Virus record (IMG/VR): IMGVR_UViG_3300037069_000805
Location: 1 to 64,000 of that record
Direction: 5' to 3' (one strand)
Length of the DNA: 64,000 bases
From: a virus
The position numbers and the translations under genes were made by a program. Of the stretch, positions 5,539 through 61,603 are shown in pieces. The notes under the pieces were generated by a model. That model was not told the DNA's origin. It was given only the letters and a program-made list of their open reading frames with translations, and searched no databases. Numbering within the stretch: the stretch's first letter is position 1; every line of letters starts with the position of its first letter.

Positions 5539-5914
5539 GGGGGTGACAGGTTTTGACATATAATTAATAGATATATAATTCAGCCAGAGAGATAACTGTA
5601 AACTAAGGTGAATTTAATAATAAACGGCAAAAATAACAAATCTGTTGGAAACAACACACAAGTTAGCGCAAATATGCGTGTAGTACATAACATCTTAAAC
5701 GGTGGTACTGAAGTGAGAAGTAATTCTCAGCCAATTGTTGCATTAGCAGCATAATATTAAGTTAAAGATTTCTTATTTAGATTAAAGTAAGTGGTGGAAT
5801 CACTAGGAAACTAGTTGACCTCGTGTATCTAAACACATAAATCTATAGTAAAGCTGTATATAAATTATATATTGAAGGTTGATATGGACCCGTTTTCAAT
5901 TAACGGCACCTCCA
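5539..5914 (+). ncRNA. ssrA: transfer-messenger RNA (tmRNA)
   Basis: GGGGGTG (5539-5545) pairs with CACCTCC (5907-5913) as a seven-pair acceptor followed by discriminator A. The third pair is G-T, the alanine identity element of tmRNA. A T-arm CCGTT/AACGG encloses TTCAATT, and the 5' half carries the usual GACAGGTTTTGAC segment. The internal frame ends at TAA 5752-5754 with codons for I-V-A-L-A-A, the degradation-tag signature. The frame is open from 5602, so the tag could be up to about 37 residues; the resume codon is not certain. CCA is not encoded (CTA follows). Length 376, near the usual 350-400. tmRNA rescues stalled ribosomes and tags their products for proteolysis. Confidence 0.93.
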
Positions 5915-5929
5915 CTAACACGACTGTTA

Positions 5930-10802: not shown

Positions 10803-11198
10803 ATGAGAAATACATTAATATGTGTATATGGTAGTTTAAGAAAAGAATTTGGAAATCATAGATTAATTAAAGATGCAGAATATAAAGGAATGTTTAGTAC
10901 AGATCCTGTTTATTCACTGTATTCATTAGGAGGATTTCCAGGTTTAAAAGAAAATGGTAACACATCTGTAGTTATGGAAGTTTATGCTGTAAATGACGCA
11001 GAAGCCCATAATGTAGATATGTTAGAAGGTTATACACCTGGTGAACCAGCCTATTTTTATGATAAGGTTAACATTGAAACTCCTTGGGGAGAGGCTGGTG
11101 TTTATATTTATGTTGGAAATATTGCTGAAGATAGATTAGTTAAATCAGGAGATTGGTTTACTTTTAAAAAAGGATTGGAAGTTAAAGAAGTAGTATAA
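10803..11198 (+). CDS. gamma-glutamylcyclotransferase-like protein
   Basis: YGSLR at residues 9-13 and the conserved acidic residue in MLEGYTPG (about residue 75) are the hallmarks of the GGCT/AIG2 fold, which cleaves gamma-glutamyl amides to 5-oxoproline plus amine. The 131-residue length is normal. A paralog lies at 17083, next to the amide-ligase cluster, so this copy may act on the same product although it is 6 kb away. Its stop overlaps the next start. Confidence 0.8.
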   Translation: MRNTLICVYGSLRKEFGNHRLIKDAEYKGMFSTDPVYSLYSLGGFPGLKENGNTSVVMEVYAVNDAEAHNVDMLEGYTPGEPAYFYDKVNIETPWGEAGVYIYVGNIAEDRLVKSGDWFTFKKGLEVKEVV

Positions 11199-15742: not shown

Positions 15743-16054
15743 ATGAAATCGCAAGAATTTCCACAATGTTGTGGTATGAAGATATTATCAGAATTTGGTC
15801 ATACTACTACTGCTGTAGTTACAACAAAATATACCAGAGATGAAATAAAAGAATTTATAGTAAATGATAGAGGTGTTAGTTTTACACGTAGTACAATACA
15901 AGTAATATCTTTAAATGAACAACAACTTAAAAGTATAGGTAGAGATTTATTTGTAGAATTAGGATTTAAAATATCAGAACCAATGTATTATCCTGGTCAT
16001 GGTAATAATTTATTTATATTAACATATAATCCAAATGGTAGTAAACCTGAATAA
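15743..16054 (+). CDS. 103-aa protein, unknown
   Basis: Soluble, with a CCGMK turn near residue 10 and a helix-beta pattern. It follows the tRNA-like element with TAACTAA 16 bases before the start, and overlaps the primase gene by 20 bases. No family recognised. Confidence 0.5.
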   Translation: MKSQEFPQCCGMKILSEFGHTTTAVVTTKYTRDEIKEFIVNDRGVSFTRSTIQVISLNEQQLKSIGRDLFVELGFKISEPMYYPGHGNNLFILTYNPNGSKPE

Positions 16055-17069
16055 AAAATATGTAAGTAAAGAATTATTATTTGAACATATATCTGATTTA
16101 CAAATATATAGAGCATATATAGATTTTGATATAAAATTTGGAACTGTATTTTCATCTCCCTTAAGAGAAATAGATAATAAACCATCATTTGGTTTTTTTG
16201 AAGGTGAAGGTGGTGAAATATGTTTTAAAGATTTTGTATTAGGTACAGGTGACTGTATTAAATTTGTACAAATGAAATTTGGTTTAAATTATTTTGAGGC
16301 ATTAAGTAAAATTGCATTAGACTTTAATTTAGAAGATGAATTTAAAATTACAAATACATTCAAAACAAACATTAATTCTAATTATCAAAATTTTAAAGAT
16401 AGAGAAGCTATTATAAGAGAAATTAATAGTAATAATTTAGGTAAAACAGCTCGTACTTGGGCTTTACATGATTTAGCATTCTGGAATAAATTTGGTATAA
16501 CTAAAACTACATTAGAAAAATATAATGTAGAACCAGTATCTTATTTACATGTAGGTGTAAACAAAAAAATAATACCTGCTGATAAATATGCTTATTCATT
16601 TAGAGAAGCCAAAGAAGGTTCTTTTACTTATAAGATATATCAACCATATAATATAAATTATAAATGGTTAAATAATCATAATAATTCTGTATGGCAAGGA
16701 TGGTCACAATTACCATTAACAGGTAATGAAATTATAATAACTAAATCATTAAAAGATGTAATGTCTATTCATGATGTATTAGGAATACCTGCTGTAGCAT
16801 TACAATCAGAATCTGTAATACCTAAAGAAAAAATAATTGATGAATTAAAATCAAGATTTAAATATGTTTACATATTATATGACAATGATTACGATAAAGA
16901 AGAAAATTGGGGACAGATATTTAGTAATAAATTAACTAAAGAATTTGGATTTTATGAAATGTTTATACATGAAAAATATAAAAGTAAAGATTTTAGTGAT
17001 TTAGTTAAAAATCATGGTTCTAAAATAGCAACAGATTATATTAATACATTAATGGATTTACCATTTTAA
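16035..17069 (+). CDS. DnaG-type DNA primase
   Basis: The N-terminal part has the catalytic-core look of primase (KPSFGFFEGEGGEICFKDF near residues 50-68). The second half holds a TOPRIM-like domain: EIIITKSLKDVMS (about 232-244) and VYILYDNDYD (about 281-290), the acidic pair that binds metal. No intact CHC2 zinc finger is visible. At 344 residues it is a compact phage primase. It would make primers at the fork with the DnaB-like helicase. The first codons overlap the preceding gene. Confidence 0.7.
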   Translation: MVVNLNKKYVSKELLFEHISDLQIYRAYIDFDIKFGTVFSSPLREIDNKPSFGFFEGEGGEICFKDFVLGTGDCIKFVQMKFGLNYFEALSKIALDFNLEDEFKITNTFKTNINSNYQNFKDREAIIREINSNNLGKTARTWALHDLAFWNKFGITKTTLEKYNVEPVSYLHVGVNKKIIPADKYAYSFREAKEGSFTYKIYQPYNINYKWLNNHNNSVWQGWSQLPLTGNEIIITKSLKDVMSIHDVLGIPAVALQSESVIPKEKIIDELKSRFKYVYILYDNDYDKEENWGQIFSNKLTKEFGFYEMFIHEKYKSKDFSDLVKNHGSKIATDYINTLMDLPF

Positions 17070-17082
17070 ATACTTTTAAGAT

Positions 17083-17484
17083 ATGGAAAAAAAGTTTTTG
17101 ATAGCTGTATATGGTTGTCTTAGAAAAGGTCTAAATATGCACGGTTATTTATCTTCCAATTCAATATATATGGGTAGTTATGATACAGATCCTATTTATA
17201 GTATGTATTCAATTAAATCATTTCCTGGTTTAGTAAAAAATGGTAATACTTCTATAAGAATGGAAGTATATGAAGTCAATGAAGGAGTATTAGATAATAT
17301 AGATGGATTAGAAGGAGTTAGTTCAATACACGATGATTTAAGTATGTTCTTAAGAGAATTAATAGAAACACCATATGGAGATGCTTATACTTATTTTTAT
17401 AATGAAGAAATTAATACAAGAGTAAAAGTAGATTGTGGTGATTGGTTAGAGTTTAAAAAACAATTAAAAAAAATGATTAAATAA
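17083..17484 (+). CDS. gamma-glutamylcyclotransferase-like protein 2
   Basis: YGCLRKG (residues 10-16) is the nucleotide-like loop of the GGCT fold, and DGLEG (about residues 74-78) carries the catalytic acid. It is a clear paralog of the 10803 protein (shared TDP-Y-Y---FPGL--NGNTS-MEVY pattern). It lies 7 bases before the ATP-grasp gene, so it belongs to the amide-bond cluster and probably hydrolyses or cyclises a gamma-glutamyl-like amide there. Confidence 0.8.
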   Translation: MEKKFLIAVYGCLRKGLNMHGYLSSNSIYMGSYDTDPIYSMYSIKSFPGLVKNGNTSIRMEVYEVNEGVLDNIDGLEGVSSIHDDLSMFLRELIETPYGDAYTYFYNEEINTRVKVDCGDWLEFKKQLKKMIK

Positions 17485-17491
17485 TAATATT

Positions 17492-18367
17492 ATGGGTATT
17501 GTAAGTATTAAAAAAAATAAAAAAGAAATAACAAAAACTACAGATACTGGTAGAGGATGGATTCCTCAAATACGTAGTAGACATCCTAGCCATCATGGTT
17601 TAAGAGGTGCTCTTAGAAGATTAGGTTTTAGAAGTGTAATTAGATTTGGTTCTACAACAGAATTAGATGTTAATTATAGAGTTGAATTAAATTCAGCAGA
17701 AGCTATTAGAAATAGTTCTAGTAAACTTAAAATGAAAGAATGTTTTGATAATCTAAAAGTTAAAACAGCTAAATGGACACAATTAACTGGTGAAGCATTA
17801 ATTAATTGGATTCAAAATGAAAAAGATGGAGTTGGTTATCCAATTGTAGCTAAACATCATTTTGGAAGTAGAGGTACAGGTAATTATTTATTAAGAAATA
17901 AAAAAGAAGTAGAAGAATTTCTTAGTAAACAATCTAAAAATTTAGGTAGATATATATTTGAAAAATATTATAACTATAATAGAGAATATAGATTACATGT
18001 AACTAAAAATGGTTCATTCTATGCTTGTAGAAAAATGTTAAAAGGAGAATTTAAAGATAGTGATAAAGCATGGCAAAGACATGATGATAATTGCTCTTGG
18101 ATTTTACCAAACAATCCTTTATTTGAAACACCTAATAACTGGAAAGAAATAGAAGAACATTGTGTAAATGCTTTAAAATCTTGTGGTTTAGATTTTGGTG
18201 CTTGTGATTTAAGAGTTCAAAATAATACTGATGAAAAAGGTAAGGTAAGAGCTAATCCTGATTTTATTGTAATTGAAATTAATAGTGCTCCATCATTTGG
18301 ACAGATAACATTAGAAAAATATAAAGAAATGTTACCTGAACTACTTATACAGAAAAGTAATGAATGA
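17492..18367 (+). CDS. ATP-grasp carboxylate-amine ligase
   Basis: The ATP-grasp fold is marked by YPIVAKHHFGSRGTG (about residues 116-130) as the glycine-rich lysine strand, EKYYNYNREYRLHV (about 154-167), and the metal-binding end FIVIEINSAPSFG (about 258-270). Such enzymes form amide or peptide bonds through an acyl phosphate. The N-terminal 60 residues are basic and Arg/His-rich. It starts a tight run of amide-chemistry genes. The substrate cannot be read from sequence. Confidence 0.8.
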   Translation: MGIVSIKKNKKEITKTTDTGRGWIPQIRSRHPSHHGLRGALRRLGFRSVIRFGSTTELDVNYRVELNSAEAIRNSSSKLKMKECFDNLKVKTAKWTQLTGEALINWIQNEKDGVGYPIVAKHHFGSRGTGNYLLRNKKEVEEFLSKQSKNLGRYIFEKYYNYNREYRLHVTKNGSFYACRKMLKGEFKDSDKAWQRHDDNCSWILPNNPLFETPNNWKEIEEHCVNALKSCGLDFGACDLRVQNNTDEKGKVRANPDFIVIEINSAPSFGQITLEKYKEMLPELLIQKSNE

Positions 18368-18854
18368 ACCTTTTTATTTTTTTAACCAAAGTCCTTACAT
18401 AATCAATGATAATATAACTAAAGAAGTTTCAAAAATAGAATATAAAACAAGACTTCTTGTTACTGATTATTTAAAAGCTGGTAAAGTTACACAAATAGGA
18501 GAACATTTTTCTATAGAATTTATAATACAGAAAAATAGTTTTCCATATGATTTACGATTTGATGTATATACTGGAGCTTTTGGTAATTGTCAAAATGTTA
18601 CAGTAAGAAATTCTAATAAAATTATATTTGCAACAAATGATTATCAAGAATTTAAAGATGTTTTATTATATATAGTTGAACATTCTAAAAAGAAAGTTAT
18701 TATCTTTGATATTAAAGAAAGTTATTATGATCAATTAATTAAATTAATAGAAGGACATAATACAGAAGAAAAGCTGTTTTTAGTTAAACAAAAATATACA
18801 AATTTAACAAACAATATTATGTATTGCTTATACATAAATACAAATAATTTATAA
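18360..18854 (+). CDS. 164-aa protein in amide-ligase cluster, unknown
   Basis: An alpha/beta protein with a beta-rich first half and a VIIFDIKESYYDQLIKLIEG strand-helix unit near residue 120, followed by a strand pair. The second half looks faintly like an acetyltransferase end, but no CoA motif is present. It overlaps the ATP-grasp gene by 8 bases and ends one base before the split amidotransferase gene, so a role in the same pathway is likely. Confidence 0.5.
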   Translation: MNEPFYFFNQSPYIINDNITKEVSKIEYKTRLLVTDYLKAGKVTQIGEHFSIEFIIQKNSFPYDLRFDVYTGAFGNCQNVTVRNSNKIIFATNDYQEFKDVLLYIVEHSKKKVIIFDIKESYYDQLIKLIEGHNTEEKLFLVKQKYTNLTNNIMYCLYINTNNL

Positions 18855-18855
18855 A

Positions 18856-20547
18856 ATGAAAAAAACAATAGGTATTTATGCCGACACATTTAATGGTAAA
18901 GTTGGACAAACATTTGCTTATATGCAATTTTTTAGTCAATTTGGTTTTGTTAGAATGATATCTACACATGAAAATTTAGATAATATTATAAATGAAATTG
19001 ATATTCTAGTTATACCAGGTGGTGCTGATGTTGATGCAACATTATATGGTGAAATACCAGGTGTAAATGATAGTAGAATTAATCAACATTATGAATATTT
19101 AGATAATTTGTTAATACCTCAATTTATACAAGCAAATAAACCTATTATAGGGATAAACTAACATGTCCCATTATGTAGTGATACATAATTAAAAACGGGG
19201 TGAACTCATGGAAAAGCTGAAATGCCAATCATGAGCTAAGCTTAGAGAGAAATCTATTTGAAAGTGCAACGACTAGGAATCAAGACTAAGTTCTTCATTA
19301 TTAAAGAATATGTCAGTAATATTCCCACGAGCGCCCTGGTTCTCATTAAAACAAATAATATTTAAAATATTTTTAGAAAAAAGTTTAAGTTGATTAAAAT
19401 TTGCTTCATTCTTCATAGCATTAGCTAATCTAGAAATAACAATAATATTTCCTTTAATATATCCTTTAGAATTATTAATTCTATCTATTGTATGTGTATT
19501 GATAGCATAGGAAATATTTTTAGAATAATCTAATTCAAATTCTAATATTGGACAATATCTTGGTAAGATAATATCCGTATATTCTAAATTGAATTCTAAA
19601 TTTCTTCTTTTTGCAGATCCTTTTAAATTTCGTATCATATAACCTTTAATTCTATCTTCTCTATTTGAATAATTTCTTTCAATAAAGTTAGTTTTTAAAC
19701 CTAGTTTTTTACGAATATTTTGAGTCATTGATTTAGAAATATTAAGTTTTTCTGAAATCATTCTATCTGAATATCCTTTTTCTACATAATCTATAAATAA
19801 TTCTTTATAGGCTGTAATTTTAGAGGCTGGTTCAAGATTTAATGATTTTCTAAAAATACCTATTTTTTTACGATCAATATTTAATTCTGCTGCGATTTTA
19901 TAATCGCTTAATCCTTTATTATATAAAGGTAAAAATAATTCTTCCATAATTAAAATGTGTTTTATATTAAACATATAATAAAGATAGGGAATTTTTATTT
20001 AAAAAACAAGAAATAATTAAATTATTTTATAATAAAAAATATTATATTGAGAATATGATATAGTCTGGACTTACGTTAATAGAAAGCGTAAGAAGTATAG
20101 AATAAAGAGTCTATACGATAACAGCGACGATGTCGCGGAATGCAACGTCTAAATGTATATTTTGGTGGAACCCTGAACCAACATATTATTGGACATCATC
20201 AAGGTGATGATAGAGATAAAAGATTACAAATGTTACAATTTCCAGATAGTGAAAATGTATATTATGTAAATACTTTACATCATCAATCAGTTGATAAATT
20301 AGGTGATAATTTAGAAATATTAGCATATACACCAATATATGATGGATGTTATTCTAAACATACTAATTATCAACCTTGGAGAAGATTTGATAAATCTGGT
20401 AAACTTGAATCTACAGATAATTCACCTGTAACTATTGAAATATTTAAACATTCAGATTTAAAAGTTTTAGGAATACAATATCATCCAGAACAGTTCAATT
20501 GTAAACTAGCAAAAATGTTAATAGAAAATTTAATCGATGATGAATAA
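18856..20547 (+). CDS. class I amidotransferase/C26 peptidase, split by intron
   Basis: Exon 1 is 18856-19154 and exon 2 is 20130-20547. Joined they give 717 bases and 238 residues. The frame restores G-I-C-R-G-M-Q, with Cys101 the nucleophile of a class I glutamine amidotransferase/gamma-glutamyl hydrolase (C26, PuuD-like) domain. IPGGADVD (about 54-61) forms the oxyanion side, HHQ and QYHPEQF supply the catalytic His and Glu. It would hydrolyse gamma-glutamyl bonds or pass ammonia to a ligase. Unspliced RNA stops one codon into the intron. It pairs with the intron-less relative at 20537, whose start overlaps its end. Confidence 0.85.
19155..20129 (+). mobile_element. group I intron
   Basis: The 5' exon ends in GGGAT and pairs with GTCCC a few bases into the intron, leaving the diagnostic U-G wobble at the splice site (P1). 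The intron ends in G (20129). Core strands are visible: GACTA at 19271-19275 pairs with TAGTC in the GATATAGTC box near 20061 (P7). Splicing fuses AT+A to give Ile100, directly before the catalytic Cys codon. The 975-base intron holds one ORF, on the minus strand, whose TAG stop lies inside the P7 strand. Confidence 0.88.
19273..19974 (-). CDS. HNH-type homing endonuclease, antisense in intron
   Basis: Two helix-turn-helix units (about residues 12-45 and 55-95) recognise DNA. The C-terminal part has YCPILEFELDY and then TIDRINNSKGYIKGN (about 168-182), the DRI-N-KGY-GN signature of phage HNH endonucleases, followed by a helix with AN-MK. An internal Met (start 19947) is also possible. The gene reads opposite to the intron and the interrupted gene. 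Its last codons encode the core P7 strand on the other strand. It probably mediates intron homing. Confidence 0.8.
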   Translation of the reverse strand: MFNIKHILIMEELFLPLYNKGLSDYKIAAELNIDRKKIGIFRKSLNLEPASKITAYKELFIDYVEKGYSDRMISEKLNISKSMTQNIRKKLGLKTNFIERNYSNREDRIKGYMIRNLKGSAKRRNLEFNLEYTDIILPRYCPILEFELDYSKNISYAINTHTIDRINNSKGYIKGNIIVISRLANAMKNEANFNQLKLFSKNILNIICFNENQGARGNITDIFFNNEELSLDS

Positions 20548-21205
20548 AAAAATAACAGTATTAATAAATGATAAGTTAAGTAATTCATCTTATTTAGCTT
20601 TCTTAAAAGAAATATTCACAGTTGAAGTTGTAGAATATTCAAAATACAATTACGAACATATTGACTTAGCATTATTTACAGGTGGAGAAGATGTAAATCC
20701 TATTTACTATAATGAAGGACAAGGAAATAGAACTCAATGTAATCCTGATAGAGATAAAGTTGAAAAAGCAATGTATAATTCTGTAGGTAAAAAAACATTT
20801 AAATTAGGAATTTGTAGAGGTTCTCAGTTATTAACTGTTTTATCTGGTGGAAAATTAGTACAACATGTTGAAAATCATACTAGATCTCATAGTATTATTT
20901 CTAATTTTCCAGAACATAATTATAAATTTATTATAACTTCTACACATCATCAAATGATGTACCCTTTCTTAATGAAAAAAGAAAGTTATCATATTATTGC
21001 TTATTCTGAATATTATTTAAGTAATACATATTTAAATGGAAAAAATGAAGAAATTTCTATTCCTGATGATTTTGTAGAACCTGAAATAGTATTTTATAAA
21101 GATAGTAATTCTTTATGTATTCAAGGACATCCTGAAATGTCAAGTTGTCCAGATGATACTAAACAAATGGTTGCTCATCTAATATTAAAATATTTAAACA
21201 AATAA
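20537..21205 (+). CDS. class I amidotransferase/C26-type protein 2
   Basis: FTGGEDVNP (about residues 47-55) and LGICRGSQLL (about 93-102, Cys nucleophile) are followed by STHHQM (about 135-140) and IQGHPEMS (about 194-201) carrying His and Glu. This is a full C26/GATase I triad in 222 residues, without an intron. It overlaps the end of its relative by 11 bases. It likely hydrolyses a gamma-glutamyl product or supplies ammonia within the amide-bond cluster. Confidence 0.85.
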   Translation: MMNKKITVLINDKLSNSSYLAFLKEIFTVEVVEYSKYNYEHIDLALFTGGEDVNPIYYNEGQGNRTQCNPDRDKVEKAMYNSVGKKTFKLGICRGSQLLTVLSGGKLVQHVENHTRSHSIISNFPEHNYKFIITSTHHQMMYPFLMKKESYHIIAYSEYYLSNTYLNGKNEEISIPDDFVEPEIVFYKDSNSLCIQGHPEMSSCPDDTKQMVAHLILKYLNK

Positions 21206-21208
21206 AAA

Positions 21209-22021
21209 ATGGTTAAAATTAAAGAAAATAAATATAAAATAACATTGGGGAGTGATCCTGAAATATTCATTAAAAATGAAAAAGAAATTGTATCAGCTGA
21301 AGGATTAACTGGTGGTTCTAAATGGGCACCAGTTCCTATTAGTGAAAGTGGTCATATGATTCAAGAAGATGGAATCGCTCTTGAATATAATATTCCACCA
21401 TCTGAAACAGTAGAAGAATTTATTGAAAATCATGAATTTGTACAAGATTATTTAAAACAAATGATTTTAGCTCACGGATATACATTTTCAATAAATAGAA
21501 GTGCTGAAATTAATCCTATATATTTACAAACAGAACAAGCAACTACATTTGGTTGTGAACCTGATTATAATGTATATTTAAAAGGAGAAAATATATCACC
21601 TAATCCTAATACAAATTTAAGATGTTGTGGTGGTCATATTCATATTGGATATCCAAATAATAATCAAGAACAAACTGAAAAAATAGTTTTAATGTTTGAT
21701 ATATTTCTTACATTACCTGCTCTATTTAAAGACAATGATACGCGTCGTAGAGAATTATATGGTAAAGCTGGTTCTTTCAGATTTAAAGATTTTGGTGTAG
21801 AATGTAGAGCATTATCTAATTTTTGGATTCATAATAGAGAAGATATGACTTGGATTTGGGAACAAACTATTAAAGCTGTAACTTGTGTATTGGATAATGA
21901 ATGTGATGAATTAATTGCAAAATATTCAGAAAAAACTAGAGAAGCTATTGATACTAATAATTTAGTATTAGCTAGAGAAATATTAACAAGTATAGAAAAA
22001 GAAGAATTAATAACAATTTAA
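21209..22021 (+). CDS. COOH-NH2 ligase (amidoligase)
   Basis: LGSDPEIFI (residues 14-22), EDGIALEYNIPP (about 54-65), CCGGHIHIGY (about 141-150) and LYGKAGSFRFK...GVECRALSNFW (about 180-203) are the ordered motifs of the phage COOH-NH2 ligase family with a glutamine-synthetase-like fold. The paired Glu and His residues bind metal and ATP. It joins a carboxylate to an amine. It sits between amidotransferase genes with 1-3 base spacing. The substrate is unknown. Confidence 0.85.
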   Translation: MVKIKENKYKITLGSDPEIFIKNEKEIVSAEGLTGGSKWAPVPISESGHMIQEDGIALEYNIPPSETVEEFIENHEFVQDYLKQMILAHGYTFSINRSAEINPIYLQTEQATTFGCEPDYNVYLKGENISPNPNTNLRCCGGHIHIGYPNNNQEQTEKIVLMFDIFLTLPALFKDNDTRRRELYGKAGSFRFKDFGVECRALSNFWIHNREDMTWIWEQTIKAVTCVLDNECDELIAKYSEKTREAIDTNNLVLAREILTSIEKEELITI

Positions 22022-22022
22022 G

Positions 22023-24050
22023 ATGATAAACACATTAATAATTTTATTATTAATTCACTATGTGGGATTAATAGTCTTTAAACCAAAATTAAACATATTA
22101 AGTTGTGGTATATTTGCCTGGGCTGGTAAAGATTTTAAGAAATTTGATAAAGCAAAATTTGATATCCAAGGACTTTATAATAATGATAGAGGTGGAGATT
22201 CATGTGGAGTTAGTACAGATGGAGAAATATATTATGGTGTTGGTAATTTTCAAAAACACTATAATCAATTTATTGTAGAAAAAAATTATAAAACACCATT
22301 ATTATATCCAACAGTTATAGGTCATACTAGAAAATCTAGTTATGGAGTAATTAATGAACATAATGCACATCCATTTGGATTTGGTAATATTGATGGAGCA
22401 GGTTTTTCTTTTATAGGTTGTCACAATGGAACATTAATTAATCATAAAGAACTTGCAGAAAAATATAATGTAGATGAAGATCACTATAAACAAGAAAATG
22501 GAAATTTTGATAGAACTAAAATTGATTCAGAAATATTATTAGAAGGTATTTATTTATCTAAAGATATTAAAATACTTAATGATTATATTGGTGGGGCAGC
22601 TATTATATTTCAAGACTTAAGTGAACCTAATATAATATATGCTTATCATGGTGCATCTAGAAAAGAAACTACTGATACAGATGCTACAATATATGAAGAA
22701 AGACCTTTATATTATTATAGAGAAACTAAAAATAGTTTATATATTTCATCTATACCTGAACCATTAATAGCTATTGGTGGAGAGTTAGAAAAAACTGTAT
22801 TTGAATTTGATTATAATTATGTTTATAAAATCGAAAATGGTGATATAGATAAATGTGTTAAATTTAAAGTAGATAGATCTAAATCTGCACATAAAAGAGG
22901 TTATGCTAGTTCTGTTAGTAATCATAATCAAGCATCTGCATTTCATATGGGACAAAATTATAGTCAAATGATGAATAATAGAAATAGTAAGAAAAATAGA
23001 AAAAATAAGAAGAAATTATCAGATAATACTAAAGTAATTAATATTTATGATGAAGTTGAAGATAATTTCTTCAAATCTAAAGTATATTATAAAAATTTAA
23101 GATATTTTAGAAATGGTCATAAAATTAATGGTGTATGGACATTTATTAAAGGTTATGGTTTTTATTTTCTTAGTAATGATACTACTGCAGCTGAAAAAGA
23201 ATCTTATGATTTAATTGAAAGAGATTTTGATTTATCATCTGGTACTTTTATTAGAGTAGATAAAAAAGTTGATAAAAATAATAAAAATCTCTTTAAACCA
23301 TTTCCATTTAATTCTGAATTTCCTACTTTAATATATTTTCATGAAGGTATATTACTTAAAGATCCATTAGATTATAAAGTTCTTACTACAGAAAAAAGTA
23401 GAACATTTACATTAAGTGATTTATCTTATATGTCAAAATATCCATTAATATATAATATTACTATTAGAAAACCTGATTTACATCAAGAAATTTGGTTAGA
23501 TGGTAAAGCTTATACTGATACTTTTTCACCTACACAAAGTGGTAAAATTTATGAAGTTATTAATGGTAATTTAAAAAGTATTGAGGTATGTGAAAATATA
23601 TCTGATATTGTAGATATTCCTGATAATGAAACTCCTGTAATTCAATTACCTATTTCTTTAAATACATGTTGTAATATTGATGATCAAGATGATACAGAAA
23701 TGTTAGCAAATCTTGAGCAAGGTTTAATAGGACAATATTCACCATTAACAGAAGAAAATACTTTATTCACTCTACATTTAGAATCAAAAGTAACTGAATA
23801 TTTTATTAAAAAAAATAAATTTATTGAAGATGAAAAAATAATAGATGATGAATTACCATTAGTTAATTTTGATAAAGAAAGTACTGATAAAATTAATAAT
23901 TTAATGACTCCAATTTATGTAACAGTACAAAATGCTAATATTGAGTTAAAAAATATTAAAAATAATGATCAAGCATCACAATTAATTGATATAAATAAAG
24001 AATATTTAATGAATATTGATGATGTTGTAAATACAGATAACAAGAACTAA
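22023..24050 (+). CDS. class II glutamine amidotransferase fusion, 675 aa
   Basis: SCGIFAW starts at residue 27. Cys28 would be the N-terminal nucleophile, followed by GHTRKSSYG (about 99-107), NAHPFG and CHNGTLIN. These are the Ntn-type GATase II motifs. The first 27 residues are hydrophobic, so Cys28 must be freed by processing. The domain ends near residue 290. The remaining 380 residues are low-complexity and beta-rich without a recognised family, perhaps a binding module. It likely makes ammonia or a glutamyl intermediate for the adjacent ligases. Confidence 0.8.
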   Translation: MINTLIILLLIHYVGLIVFKPKLNILSCGIFAWAGKDFKKFDKAKFDIQGLYNNDRGGDSCGVSTDGEIYYGVGNFQKHYNQFIVEKNYKTPLLYPTVIGHTRKSSYGVINEHNAHPFGFGNIDGAGFSFIGCHNGTLINHKELAEKYNVDEDHYKQENGNFDRTKIDSEILLEGIYLSKDIKILNDYIGGAAIIFQDLSEPNIIYAYHGASRKETTDTDATIYEERPLYYYRETKNSLYISSIPEPLIAIGGELEKTVFEFDYNYVYKIENGDIDKCVKFKVDRSKSAHKRGYASSVSNHNQASAFHMGQNYSQMMNNRNSKKNRKNKKKLSDNTKVINIYDEVEDNFFKSKVYYKNLRYFRNGHKINGVWTFIKGYGFYFLSNDTTAAEKESYDLIERDFDLSSGTFIRVDKKVDKNNKNLFKPFPFNSEFPTLIYFHEGILLKDPLDYKVLTTEKSRTFTLSDLSYMSKYPLIYNITIRKPDLHQEIWLDGKAYTDTFSPTQSGKIYEVINGNLKSIEVCENISDIVDIPDNETPVIQLPISLNTCCNIDDQDDTEMLANLEQGLIGQYSPLTEENTLFTLHLESKVTEYFIKKNKFIEDEKIIDDELPLVNFDKESTDKINNLMTPIYVTVQNANIELKNIKNNDQASQLIDINKEYLMNIDDVVNTDNKN

Positions 24051-24051
24051 T

Positions 24052-25881
24052 ATGGAAAATATTGAAAAAGTAATAGCAATAGATAATAAAACTTATCCTA
24101 AAGATTCTTGTAGATTTATAGATGGTAAATATTATTTAATTGGATTAAAAGAAATTAAATGTTCTGGTCATGTTTATTTGATTAATGGTAGATATATTAG
24201 AGAAAATACTAATAGATTAGTTTATAATCATACTACAATGGAATATGAGTTGAAAAATAATTCAGTAATAGAAGGTATTATTGGATTTGATAAATTTAAT
24301 GTTCCTATATTAGGTTATTTTAATTTAAATCCAGTATATAATGTTAAAATTGTACTACAAAATGGCAATGAAAATATCTGTATTAATGAATCTATAATTA
24401 ATTTAAATTATAGAGAAGAAAAAAGTACAGGTATTTATTATCATATAACTTTAAAAAGCGTATTAGAATTAAGATCATTAGAATTAGTAGGAAGAGAATA
24501 TAAAGAATCTTTACCTTATGATTCAAGAGGTATTACATCTAAATATTTAAAAAATTATAATGATAATTATAATCCTATTTATAATGATAGTGTTGAAAAA
24601 TATAGTCTATTATTAAAAAATTATACTTTTGGTTTAGAATTTGAAAGTGTACTAGGTATTATACCTAATAATAAATTAAATTATTTACCATTAATTCCAT
24701 TAAGAGATGGTAGTATTGATGGTATAGAATATGTTACAGTTCCATTACAACATAAAAAGGGAATGCAAGCATTAATTGATTCAGTAAAAGAGTTAAATAA
24801 AAGAACAGAATATAATGAATCTTGTTCTTTACATTTACATATAGGTAATATACCTAGAACACCTGAATTTATATTAGCATTTTATAAATTATCTTGTTAT
24901 TTTCAAGAAGATATATTTAAGATGTTTCCTTTGTATAAAAAATATAATTTTGGAATAAAACGTAAAAATTATAGTAAACCATTTGATTTTAATAAGATTA
25001 ATATTTGCTTAGAACCAAGTATTGATATTAAAAATAAAGATCAAGTAAATAAAAATTTTAGTTTAATATTTAATTATTTATCAGAGGTTACACCTTTTTC
25101 AGAATTTAAATATGATTTAAATAATGTTAAAGAGCATCCTAGAGATCCTAATGGAAATACAAAATGGAATATTACAAATAGATATTATTCTGTAAATTTT
25201 ATTCCTTTAATTTTTGGAAATAAACAAACTGTTGAATTTAGAATTCATACTCCTACTTATGATATAGGTAAAATTATAAATTTCTTATTAATTAATATTT
25301 ATTGTATAGATTATACTATTAATAATATTTCTGAAATATTAAGTAATCCTAAGTTTTTATTAAAATATAATAATTTTCAACATTTTGTAGAAGATTATAT
25401 TTATAATCACAATCCTTTAAAAAAAGGTTTAAAAAATACATTATCAACTCATCAATTAAATTATTTAAGAGAAAGAATTTCTAAAACCTATGATGGAAAT
25501 TGTAATGGTGAAATTTCTGGTAATGAAAAGATTATTAAATGTAATAATGTTATAAACTGGAAAAATAATAATTTAGTTAATTATGATGAACTATATTATG
25601 ATAATAAATATGTTATTTCTAATGAAAATGATTTAGAAATTGATGAATCTAGAGAAATAAATAATAACGAAAAAGTTTTAAAAGCTAAAAAGAATTTTGG
25701 TTATATGCCAAGTCCTTTTGATGAAATTAGACAACCAGATTCACAAATAATATCTGATGCTAAAATTCACTACAAAAATACTATTAATAAAATACATAAT
25801 GAAATAAATTCTACACAATCAGTACATGGTGGATTTTTTCAACAGATACGTGAACGTGAAACTAATGTAAAACCAGTATAA
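24052..25881 (+). CDS. Amidoligase_2 family enzyme with N-terminal extension
   Basis: FGLEFES (193-199), RDGSIDGIEYVTVPL (218-232), CSLHLHIG (258-265) and VEFRIHTP (394-401) are the ordered motifs of the Amidoligase_2 family, another glutamine-synthetase-fold ligase. Residues 1-190 are a beta-rich extension with Cys20 and Cys37, of unknown role. The C-terminal 150 residues are polar. It is the last gene of the cluster and a second, distinct ligase beside the COOH-NH2 ligase. Confidence 0.8.
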   Translation: MENIEKVIAIDNKTYPKDSCRFIDGKYYLIGLKEIKCSGHVYLINGRYIRENTNRLVYNHTTMEYELKNNSVIEGIIGFDKFNVPILGYFNLNPVYNVKIVLQNGNENICINESIINLNYREEKSTGIYYHITLKSVLELRSLELVGREYKESLPYDSRGITSKYLKNYNDNYNPIYNDSVEKYSLLLKNYTFGLEFESVLGIIPNNKLNYLPLIPLRDGSIDGIEYVTVPLQHKKGMQALIDSVKELNKRTEYNESCSLHLHIGNIPRTPEFILAFYKLSCYFQEDIFKMFPLYKKYNFGIKRKNYSKPFDFNKINICLEPSIDIKNKDQVNKNFSLIFNYLSEVTPFSEFKYDLNNVKEHPRDPNGNTKWNITNRYYSVNFIPLIFGNKQTVEFRIHTPTYDIGKIINFLLINIYCIDYTINNISEILSNPKFLLKYNNFQHFVEDYIYNHNPLKKGLKNTLSTHQLNYLRERISKTYDGNCNGEISGNEKIIKCNNVINWKNNNLVNYDELYYDNKYVISNENDLEIDESREINNNEKVLKAKKNFGYMPSPFDEIRQPDSQIISDAKIHYKNTINKIHNEINSTQSVHGGFFQQIRERETNVKPV

Positions 25882-28678: not shown

Positions 28679-29182
28679 ATGGAAATAAAAAGAAGAATAT
28701 CTAGATATTCCAGTGGAATGTTATTTACAGAATATTTAAAAATATGTAAATATTGTAAAGAGGAATGTTGGGTTAATAAAAAAAATATTGAACATTGTTC
28801 TAGAAATTGTGCAAATAATCATTTAAGAAAAATAATTAATCCTCTAGAATTTTATTTTAGAGAAAAAATTAGTAGATTAAGAAGTAATGCAAAAACAAGA
28901 CGAAAAGAATTTAATTTAACATGGAATGATTTGTTGGAAAGATATAATAAACAAAACGGTTTATGTTATTATACTAATATTAAAATGTCATTAACTTATT
29001 CTGTAAAATCTGAAAAAATTTGTCCACCTAAACAATTATCAGTAGATCGATTAGATAATAAAAAAGGTTATGATAAAGATAATATCGTATTATGTTTATT
29101 TTGTATTAACAATTTCAAAGGAGAAATGTCAATTAATGAATTTAAAGAAATTATTAATGAAATAAGATTTAATGAAGATTAG
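28679..29182 (+). CDS. free-standing HNH homing endonuclease
   Basis: A CKYCKEEC...CSRNC zinc knuckle (about residues 22-43) is followed by NGLCYYTNIKM (about 97-107) and LSVDRLDNKKGYDKDNIVL (about 120-138), the HNH core of phage endonucleases. It is inserted between an unknown gene and dut with its own promoter. It ends 11 bases inside the dut gene, so its stop overlaps the dut start region. Confidence 0.8.
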   Translation: MEIKRRISRYSSGMLFTEYLKICKYCKEECWVNKKNIEHCSRNCANNHLRKIINPLEFYFREKISRLRSNAKTRRKEFNLTWNDLLERYNKQNGLCYYTNIKMSLTYSVKSEKICPPKQLSVDRLDNKKGYDKDNIVLCLFCINNFKGEMSINEFKEIINEIRFNED

Positions 29183-61531: not shown

Positions 61532-61603
61532 AATTTGTGTGTATTTATATATTGCCTACTCTTTAGCTTTTCGGCTTCCGCTATGATTTTAAATATGTCA
61601 ATA

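Follow-up and report, generated by a model that had tools for sequence, protein, structure and literature searches.

The phage amidoligase cassette in a Crassvirales variant, with a transmembrane leader ahead of the glutaminase nucleophile

Introduction

What do seven enzymes of amide-bond chemistry do side by side in a phage genome? The question is raised by a 64-kb stretch of viral DNA (the window) out of a 104,240-base virus record (IMG/VR record IMGVR_UViG_3300037069_000805). At 17083-25881 it encodes a gamma-glutamyl(amine) cyclotransferase-like protein (GGCT), an ATP-grasp ligase, two C26/GATase I hydrolases, a COOH-NH2 ligase, a class II glutaminase and an Amidoligase_2 protein, in a single run behind the DNA primase gene (Table 1). 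A preliminary description took this run as its main candidate for an undescribed system and linked it to sets that Iyer, Aravind and colleagues had predicted in phages. The link holds, whereas the claim of novelty has to be given up: the same five core genes (COOH-NH2 ligase, Amidoligase_2, glutaminase, ATP-grasp and GGCT) have long been annotated in LUZ24-, phiEco32-, Salinovirus-, Libingvirus- and crAss-type (phi14:2) phages. On sequence comparison, the run is almost certainly the Crassvirales branch of the amidoligase cassette of phiEco32/LUZ24-type phages. Its enzymes probably make up a gamma-glutamyl or peptide amide pathway, and the best reading, which falls just short of being probable, is that this pathway acts at the host inner membrane; an envelope target for it is possible, if a shade less so.

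Integrity and conservation of the cassette

Profile searches of the window proteins against Pfam and PHROG upheld all seven enzyme calls made earlier, as well as that of a second GGCT-like gene at 10803. When the window was compared with family-invariant positions in 30-49 relatives per family, it departed from them at none of the catalytic positions. The COOH-NH2 ligase keeps all family-invariant residues against 49 sequences; both GCS-fold ligases keep the H-x-H and E/R residues, with ExE, HxH and EFR kept in Amidoligase_2; the glutaminase keeps Cys, GHTR, NAHPF, HNG and D-S-E; and the second C26 enzyme (C26b) keeps its C-H-E residues. The earlier statement that the motifs are intact in each gene thus stands, with the reservation that the first C26 enzyme (C26a, 18856-20547) regains its motif only by splicing, as described below.

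The glutamate of the LDxxEG motif is present in 90 of 115 related GGCTs and lost in the other 25, often in second copies, which suggests from sequence that the Glu-less copies are a non-catalytic paralog. Two GGCT genes are also seen in many relatives (L057-L135). The single gene of the run that had been left without a function, at 18360-18854, is in place, with homologs in 20 of the 79 loci described below. It is weakly GNAT-like: its AlphaFold model (pLDDT 69, pTM 0.66) draws almost exclusively GNATs as top Foldseek matches, at TM-scores of only 0.3-0.43.

All cassette genes lie on the plus strand and overlap or are separated by gaps of 1-7 nucleotides (nt), the C26a intron excepted. The spacing is operon-like, and promoter-like and terminator-like matches within the run are in no excess over shuffled sequences. 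Relatives were collected as 43 viral loci through a COOH-NH2 ligase search and 79 through a crAss-type Amidoligase_2 search, sets that are partly non-independent in that some contigs are near copies. Among the 79, the glutaminase is found in 79, COOH-NH2 ligase in 77, ATP-grasp in 74, primase in 73, GGCT in 72 and C26 in 65; all five core genes occur together in 70, and of the nine incomplete loci three (L068, L072 and L078) are truncated near the end of their contig. The cassette genes share one strand in 79/79 loci, and the exact order primase-GGCT-ATP-grasp-COOH-NH2 ligase-glutaminase-Amidoligase_2 is kept in 60/79. The COOH-NH2 ligase-seeded set mostly has a second order, COOH-NH2 ligase-Amidoligase_2-glutaminase-ATP-grasp(-GGCT), which is that of phiEco32/LUZ24-type phages and in which GGCT adjoins the primase/helicase region. 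These data bear out the proposal that the genes are inherited together as an operon. By every sequence test applied, the cassette is real and functional.

The edges of the cassette vary, with zero to three C26 genes across relatives, the GNAT-like gene in a minority and some GGCTs without their catalytic Glu, as might be the case if the genes were unrelated neighbours or decaying acquisitions acting separately. Given a core so regularly kept together on a single strand, in two orders that are each conserved among unrelated phages, and with its catalytic residues retained, this explanation is barely credible.

The COOH-NH2 ligase turns up in 313 phage records. Cellular homologs were confined to eight genome-bin contigs (L049-L056), most of which have phage-like cassettes and are likely prophage or phage contigs in metagenome-assembled genomes; the labels include one Dojkabacteria, one Parcubacteria and one archaeon. 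The window itself is placed in the Crassvirales by synteny, as its gene order from Sak4 through the exonuclease matches that of the classified member phi14:2.

Table 1. Positions of the cassette genes, their upstream neighbour and the intervening sequence in the window
Feature	Position	Strand	Evidence
DNA primase (context, upstream neighbour)	16035..17069	+	phrog_12622 2.8e-66
GGCT/AIG2-like gamma-glutamyl(amine) cyclotransferase	17083..17484	+	PF06094 1e-13, phrog_2520; LDxxEG Glu kept
RimK/cyanophycin-synthetase-like ATP-grasp carboxylate-amine ligase	17492..18367	+	phrog_2599 3e-32; conserved K/E/D/N all kept
Small protein with a weakly GNAT-like fold, confined to the crAss branch	18360..18854	+	AlphaFold, Foldseek
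C26/GATase I hydrolase a, exon 1 (end ...PIIGI)	18856..19154	+	PF07722 2.6e-8; alignment with uninterrupted relatives
Group I-like intron in GI^CRGMQ nucleophile motif	19155..20129	+	RF00028
Intron-internal open reading frame, helix-turn-helix (HTH), homing-endonuclease-like	19273..19974	-	weak HTH Pfam matches only
C26/GATase I hydrolase a, exon 2 (first residue = nucleophile Cys)	20130..20547	+	PF07722 1.2e-10; alignment
C26/GATase I hydrolase b	20537..21205	+	PF07722 1.6e-17, phrog_7218 2e-32; C94-H199-E201 kept
COOH-NH2 ligase type 2 (PF14395, GCS-like)	21209..22021	+	phrog_3815 4.5e-75
Class II (Ntn) glutaminase: transmembrane leader, Ntn domain, C-terminal domain without recognised family	22023..24050	+	PF13522 2.3e-6
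27-residue transmembrane leader MINTLIILLLIHYVGLIVFKPKLNILS of glutaminase; catalytic Cys codon next, at 22104	22023..22103	+	
Amidoligase_2 with extra N-terminal domain of ~190 residues	24052..25881	+	PF12224 3.5e-5 (over cut-off), phrog_2443 6.7e-30
Second GGCT-like gene	10803..11198	+	phrog_2520 2.3e-22

A transmembrane leader ahead of the glutaminase nucleophile

The feature that may tell where the cassette acts was absent from the preliminary description. The glutaminase open reading frame (ORF) begins with MINTLIILLLIHYVGLIVFKPKLNILS, after which comes the catalytic Cys. Of 71 distinct crAss-type glutaminases, 42 have a transmembrane (TM) leader of about 27 residues inserted precisely after the start Met and ahead of the catalytic Cys, a leader being counted where at least 20 residues precede the Cys; 39 of the 42 pass the hydropathy cut-off. 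The remaining 29 are leaderless, opening with MCG or similar, and the phiEco32-type glutaminases lack the leader too. The leader ATG mostly lies no more than 30 nt from the upstream stop, just as plain ATGs do, with the Cys codon ~75-145 nt away; second codon positions are the least variable within the leader region; and the pattern of a hydrophobic stretch, FKPK, N-x-L-S/N and Cys recurs. The leader is thus not a start-site artefact. Positive charges stand C-terminal to the hydrophobic stretch, from which the enzyme is predicted to face the cytoplasm.

Among near relatives (L057-L135) the leader is a clean indel from the start ATG to the TGT Cys codon. On a tree of the 71 glutaminases it calls for 22 changes, at least 16 of them on supported branches, a count no lower than with shuffled labels. 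No other cassette protein has a consistent TM segment. Several other accounts were tried and rejected. A signal peptide or lipoprotein signal does not fit, as position -1 is often Asn or Tyr, -2 Leu and -3 Thr, Ile or Val, which suits neither signal peptidase I nor a lipobox. In leaderless phages, no ORF upstream of the glutaminase encodes the leader as a separate small gene, nor has the TM segment shifted onto another cassette protein.

Class II glutaminases such as GlmS, PurF and GltB need their catalytic Cys at the N-terminus, so the leader would have to be removed, or else the enzyme would be inactive. To our knowledge, there is no other case of a TM leader on a class II glutamine amidotransferase. 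The glutaminase could be pictured as a membrane-tethered pro-enzyme: the leader would bring the catalytic domain to the inner membrane, and a cut directly ahead of the nucleophile Cys would start a membrane-localised phage pathway for amidating or peptide-tagging a cell-envelope precursor. In this specific form we consider the idea doubtful.

A possible pathway at the inner membrane

In the pathway that we favour, the cassette genes would be expressed together with the replication genes as a single unit, and glutamine would feed the glutaminase. Carboxylates and amines could then be joined step by step, at the cost of ATP, by the ATP-grasp enzyme and both GCS-fold ligases on a peptide or amide derived from glutamate or glutamine, with GGCT and the C26 hydrolases cleaving gamma-glutamyl bonds in a deprotection or product-editing step. 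Ligase and GGCT pairs are able to protect and deprotect, as BtrJ and BtrG do in butirosin synthesis. The cyclotransferase and a hydrolase may, as the preliminary description had it, undo the product; in known pathways such enzymes also take off a gamma-glutamyl protecting group. The TM leader would bring the newly made glutaminase to the inner membrane, on its inner face, and would have to be cleaved so that the Cys becomes N-terminal. Its location before the nucleophile favours an acceptor near the membrane, which might be a cell-wall precursor or another envelope peptide, and the likely use would be to alter the host envelope during infection, e.g., against superinfection. A later paper likewise states, citing Iyer et al. 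(2009), that cell-wall modification and the blocking of superinfection had been proposed as the role of the phiEco32 enzymes (PMC10580990).

Several points weigh against a membrane-located pathway. No experimental test of the function, substrate or product of the cassette was found in the literature searched. The leaderless crAss-type glutaminases, and the flips of the leader among near relatives, mean that membrane targeting cannot be essential everywhere, and cleavage of the leader is predicted by analogy with known class II GATases. By Pfam, clear envelope enzymes such as a glycosyltransferase, a flippase or a Mur ligase are missing from the cluster. Furthermore, primase adjacency in two unrelated phage groups, the crAss-type and the phiEco32/LUZ24-type, could equally mean that the enzymes act on nucleic acid or nucleotides.

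The last point leads to a rival explanation, in which the cassette modifies DNA or nucleotides, attaching an amino acid or amide to a base and so shielding the phage DNA. The expression evidence, which comes from the relative PaP3, a Pseudomonas aeruginosa phage, and with which the operon-like spacing in the window agrees, speaks for it. Homologs of the core enzymes are found in PaP3 as ORF42 (GGCT), ORF43 (ATP-grasp), ORF45 (glutaminase), ORF46 (amidoligase) and ORF48 (COOH-NH2 ligase), and in a microarray study ORF32-48 fell among the middle genes, which peak at 10-30 min, together with DNA polymerase (ORF32 and ORF39) and primase/helicase (ORF40) (PMC4707531). The shared temporal class agrees with the earlier view that the genes are expressed together, and equally with the pathway favoured above. 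In addition, cassette-bearing Gordonclarkvirinae resist restriction-modification with no known modification pathway (PMC11990801); however, the authors of that BASEL study point to a dCTP deaminase and a nucleotidyltransferase instead (PMC11990801). BamHI, for which six sites were counted in the sequence of the cassette-bearing phage Delta, cuts its DNA into distinct bands (PMC8540360). Resistance of phage Delta to SmaI was rejected as a sign of modification, since its sequence has zero SmaI sites. The PaP3 annotation has neither a base hydroxymethylase nor a nucleotide kinase, and Pfam finds no base-modifying enzyme family in the cluster. Taken together, DNA or nucleotide modification appears quite unlikely.

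The enzyme families allow two further explanations. The Ntn domain of the glutaminase matches the GlmS glutaminase (1xff, E 4.6e-12) and its model is matched by EgtC, the ergothioneine amidase (4zfk, E 1e-8); the ATP-grasp profile matches cyanophycin synthase and RimK structures and also touches GshAB. For either GCS-fold ligase, sequence search found no solved structure. The EgtC and GshAB matches, a set of ligase folds and a GGCT that match glutathione synthesis and turnover, and the fact that all families handle glutamate or gamma-glutamyl groups would suit a free gamma-glutamyl peptide or amide of the glutathione or ergothioneine type, serving as a redox, protective or counter-defence metabolite. 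We regard this as unlikely, as it leaves the TM leader without explanation, two GCS-fold ligases and a glutaminase are more than glutathione requires, and no user of such a metabolite has been shown in the window.

Alternatively, the cassette could attach glutamate, glutamine or a short peptide to a protein of the host or the phage, much as RimK acts on ribosomal protein S6, and so redirect host machinery. The ATP-grasp member is nearest to RimK and cyanophycin synthase, and related jumbo-phage ATP-grasp enzymes are predicted to modify host proteins (PMC7824862). Yet RimK alone is enough for protein glutamylation, which would leave the glutaminase, the hydrolases and the remaining ligases to be accounted for in some other way, and no target has been linked to the cassette; protein tagging is therefore improbable.

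Hundreds of phages from unrelated groups keep this set of five ATP-spending or glutamine-using enzymes, and the cassette must therefore matter to infection. The leader suggests where in the cell it may act, and if envelope modification proves true, it would be a widespread phage route by which host cell walls are altered from within.

The split C26 gene

The preliminary description listed two C26 genes. Both are upheld, but the first consists of two exons around an intron and not of one ORF: ORF 18856-19161 encodes the front half of the enzyme and ends just before the nucleophile, and ORF 20140-20547 encodes the second half. Uninterrupted relatives (L002, L004-L007, L012 and L016) align over both halves, and joining the sequence at the junction GGGAT|...|ATGTCGCGG restores GI-CRGMQ. 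The intervening sequence, of ~975 nt, is absent in L002 and L004-L007. Its borders are as in group I introns, with T as the last base of the 5' exon and G as the last base of the intron, and positions 19145-19346 match Rfam Intron_gpI (RF00028) at 29.5 bits (E 2.4e-5), which does not reach the gathering score of 50. Because the intron lies directly before the nucleophile codon, the predicted active site of C26a exists only once it is spliced out. The position and sequence of the ORF within it point to a putative homing nuclease.

An intervening sequence at the same C26 site, GI^CRG, is found in L067 and L081, making three loci with the window. Cassette genes are repeatedly interrupted at active-site codons (the window, L067, L081, L125, L016/L062, L053, L071, L098, L007/L066 and L111). 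The sites are GI^CRG (three loci) and CRG^xQ in C26; CG^GHIHIG, G^CEPD and KKYG^VECR in the COOH-NH2 ligase; and KWNIxTR^ in Amidoligase_2. None of the intervening sequences of seven relatives attains an Rfam gathering score.

Other features of the window

Elsewhere in the window, a tmRNA gene at 5539-5917 (ARAGORN; Rfam RF00023, 56.9 bits) encodes the tag GGTEVRSNSQPIVALAA. A 167-residue ORF at 28679-29182, between the exonuclease region and ORFs resembling dUTPase and ribonucleotide reductase, looks by eye like an HNH homing endonuclease. At 61553-61584, on the minus strand amid large minus-strand late genes, there is a match to the Rfam DUF805b cis-regulatory RNA (47.1 bits).

Comparison with known systems

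The cassette shares enzyme types with several known pathways. The ergothioneine (EgtA/EgtC) and glutathione pathways also pair a GCS-fold ligase with a class II GATase-fold gamma-glutamyl amidase, or an ATP-grasp enzyme with GGCT; no EgtB/EgtD-like gene was seen in the window cluster. In the Puu gamma-glutamylputrescine pathway (PuuA/PuuD) and in MurT/GatD amidation of peptidoglycan, a C26/GATase I-type enzyme is paired with an amide ligase, as it is here. By Pfam, the cluster has neither a PuuA-type glutamine synthetase (PF00120), its ligases being PF14395 and PF12224, nor a Mur ligase that could be a MurT-like partner of GatD.

Among phages, the cassettes of phiEco32, LUZ24 and PaP3 (PaP3 ORF42-48, SU10 gp078-gp088, UFV-P2 ORF21-29) have the same five families on one strand beside primase/helicase, and the same domains have been reported for UFV-P2 ORF21-29 (PMC3890496). 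They differ from the window in their order, COOH-NH2 ligase-X-Amidoligase_2-glutaminase-ATP-grasp-GGCT, and in the X protein (190-205 residues) encoded between the two ligases, a phiEco32-type feature with no match in the crAss-type loci searched. The different order and the unmatched X family make the window cassette a variant, of a different subtype from phiEco32/LUZ24. X was rejected as the origin of the N-terminal domain of Amidoligase_2 or the C-terminal domain of the glutaminase, as profiles showed no similarity.

The nearest cultured counterpart is Cellulophaga phage phi14:2 (Crassvirales, Akihdevirus), whose host is Cellulophaga baltica. A synteny search found the core set in its genes g037-g041, within the order primase-GGCT-ATP-grasp-COOH-NH2 ligase-glutaminase-Amidoligase_2-UDG-RusA-exonuclease that it shares with the window, and its glutaminase also has a TM leader. 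In contrast to the window, phi14:2 has no C26 genes, and its Amidoligase_2 is 37% identical. Relative to the phiEco32 type, the crAss branch adds the N-terminal domain of Amidoligase_2, which occurs in crAss-type relatives, the GNAT-like gene and the TM leader, and its C26 genes are more numerous (one to three). On sequence comparison, the C26 additions, the Amidoligase_2 N-terminal domain and the glutaminase leader are what is new here.

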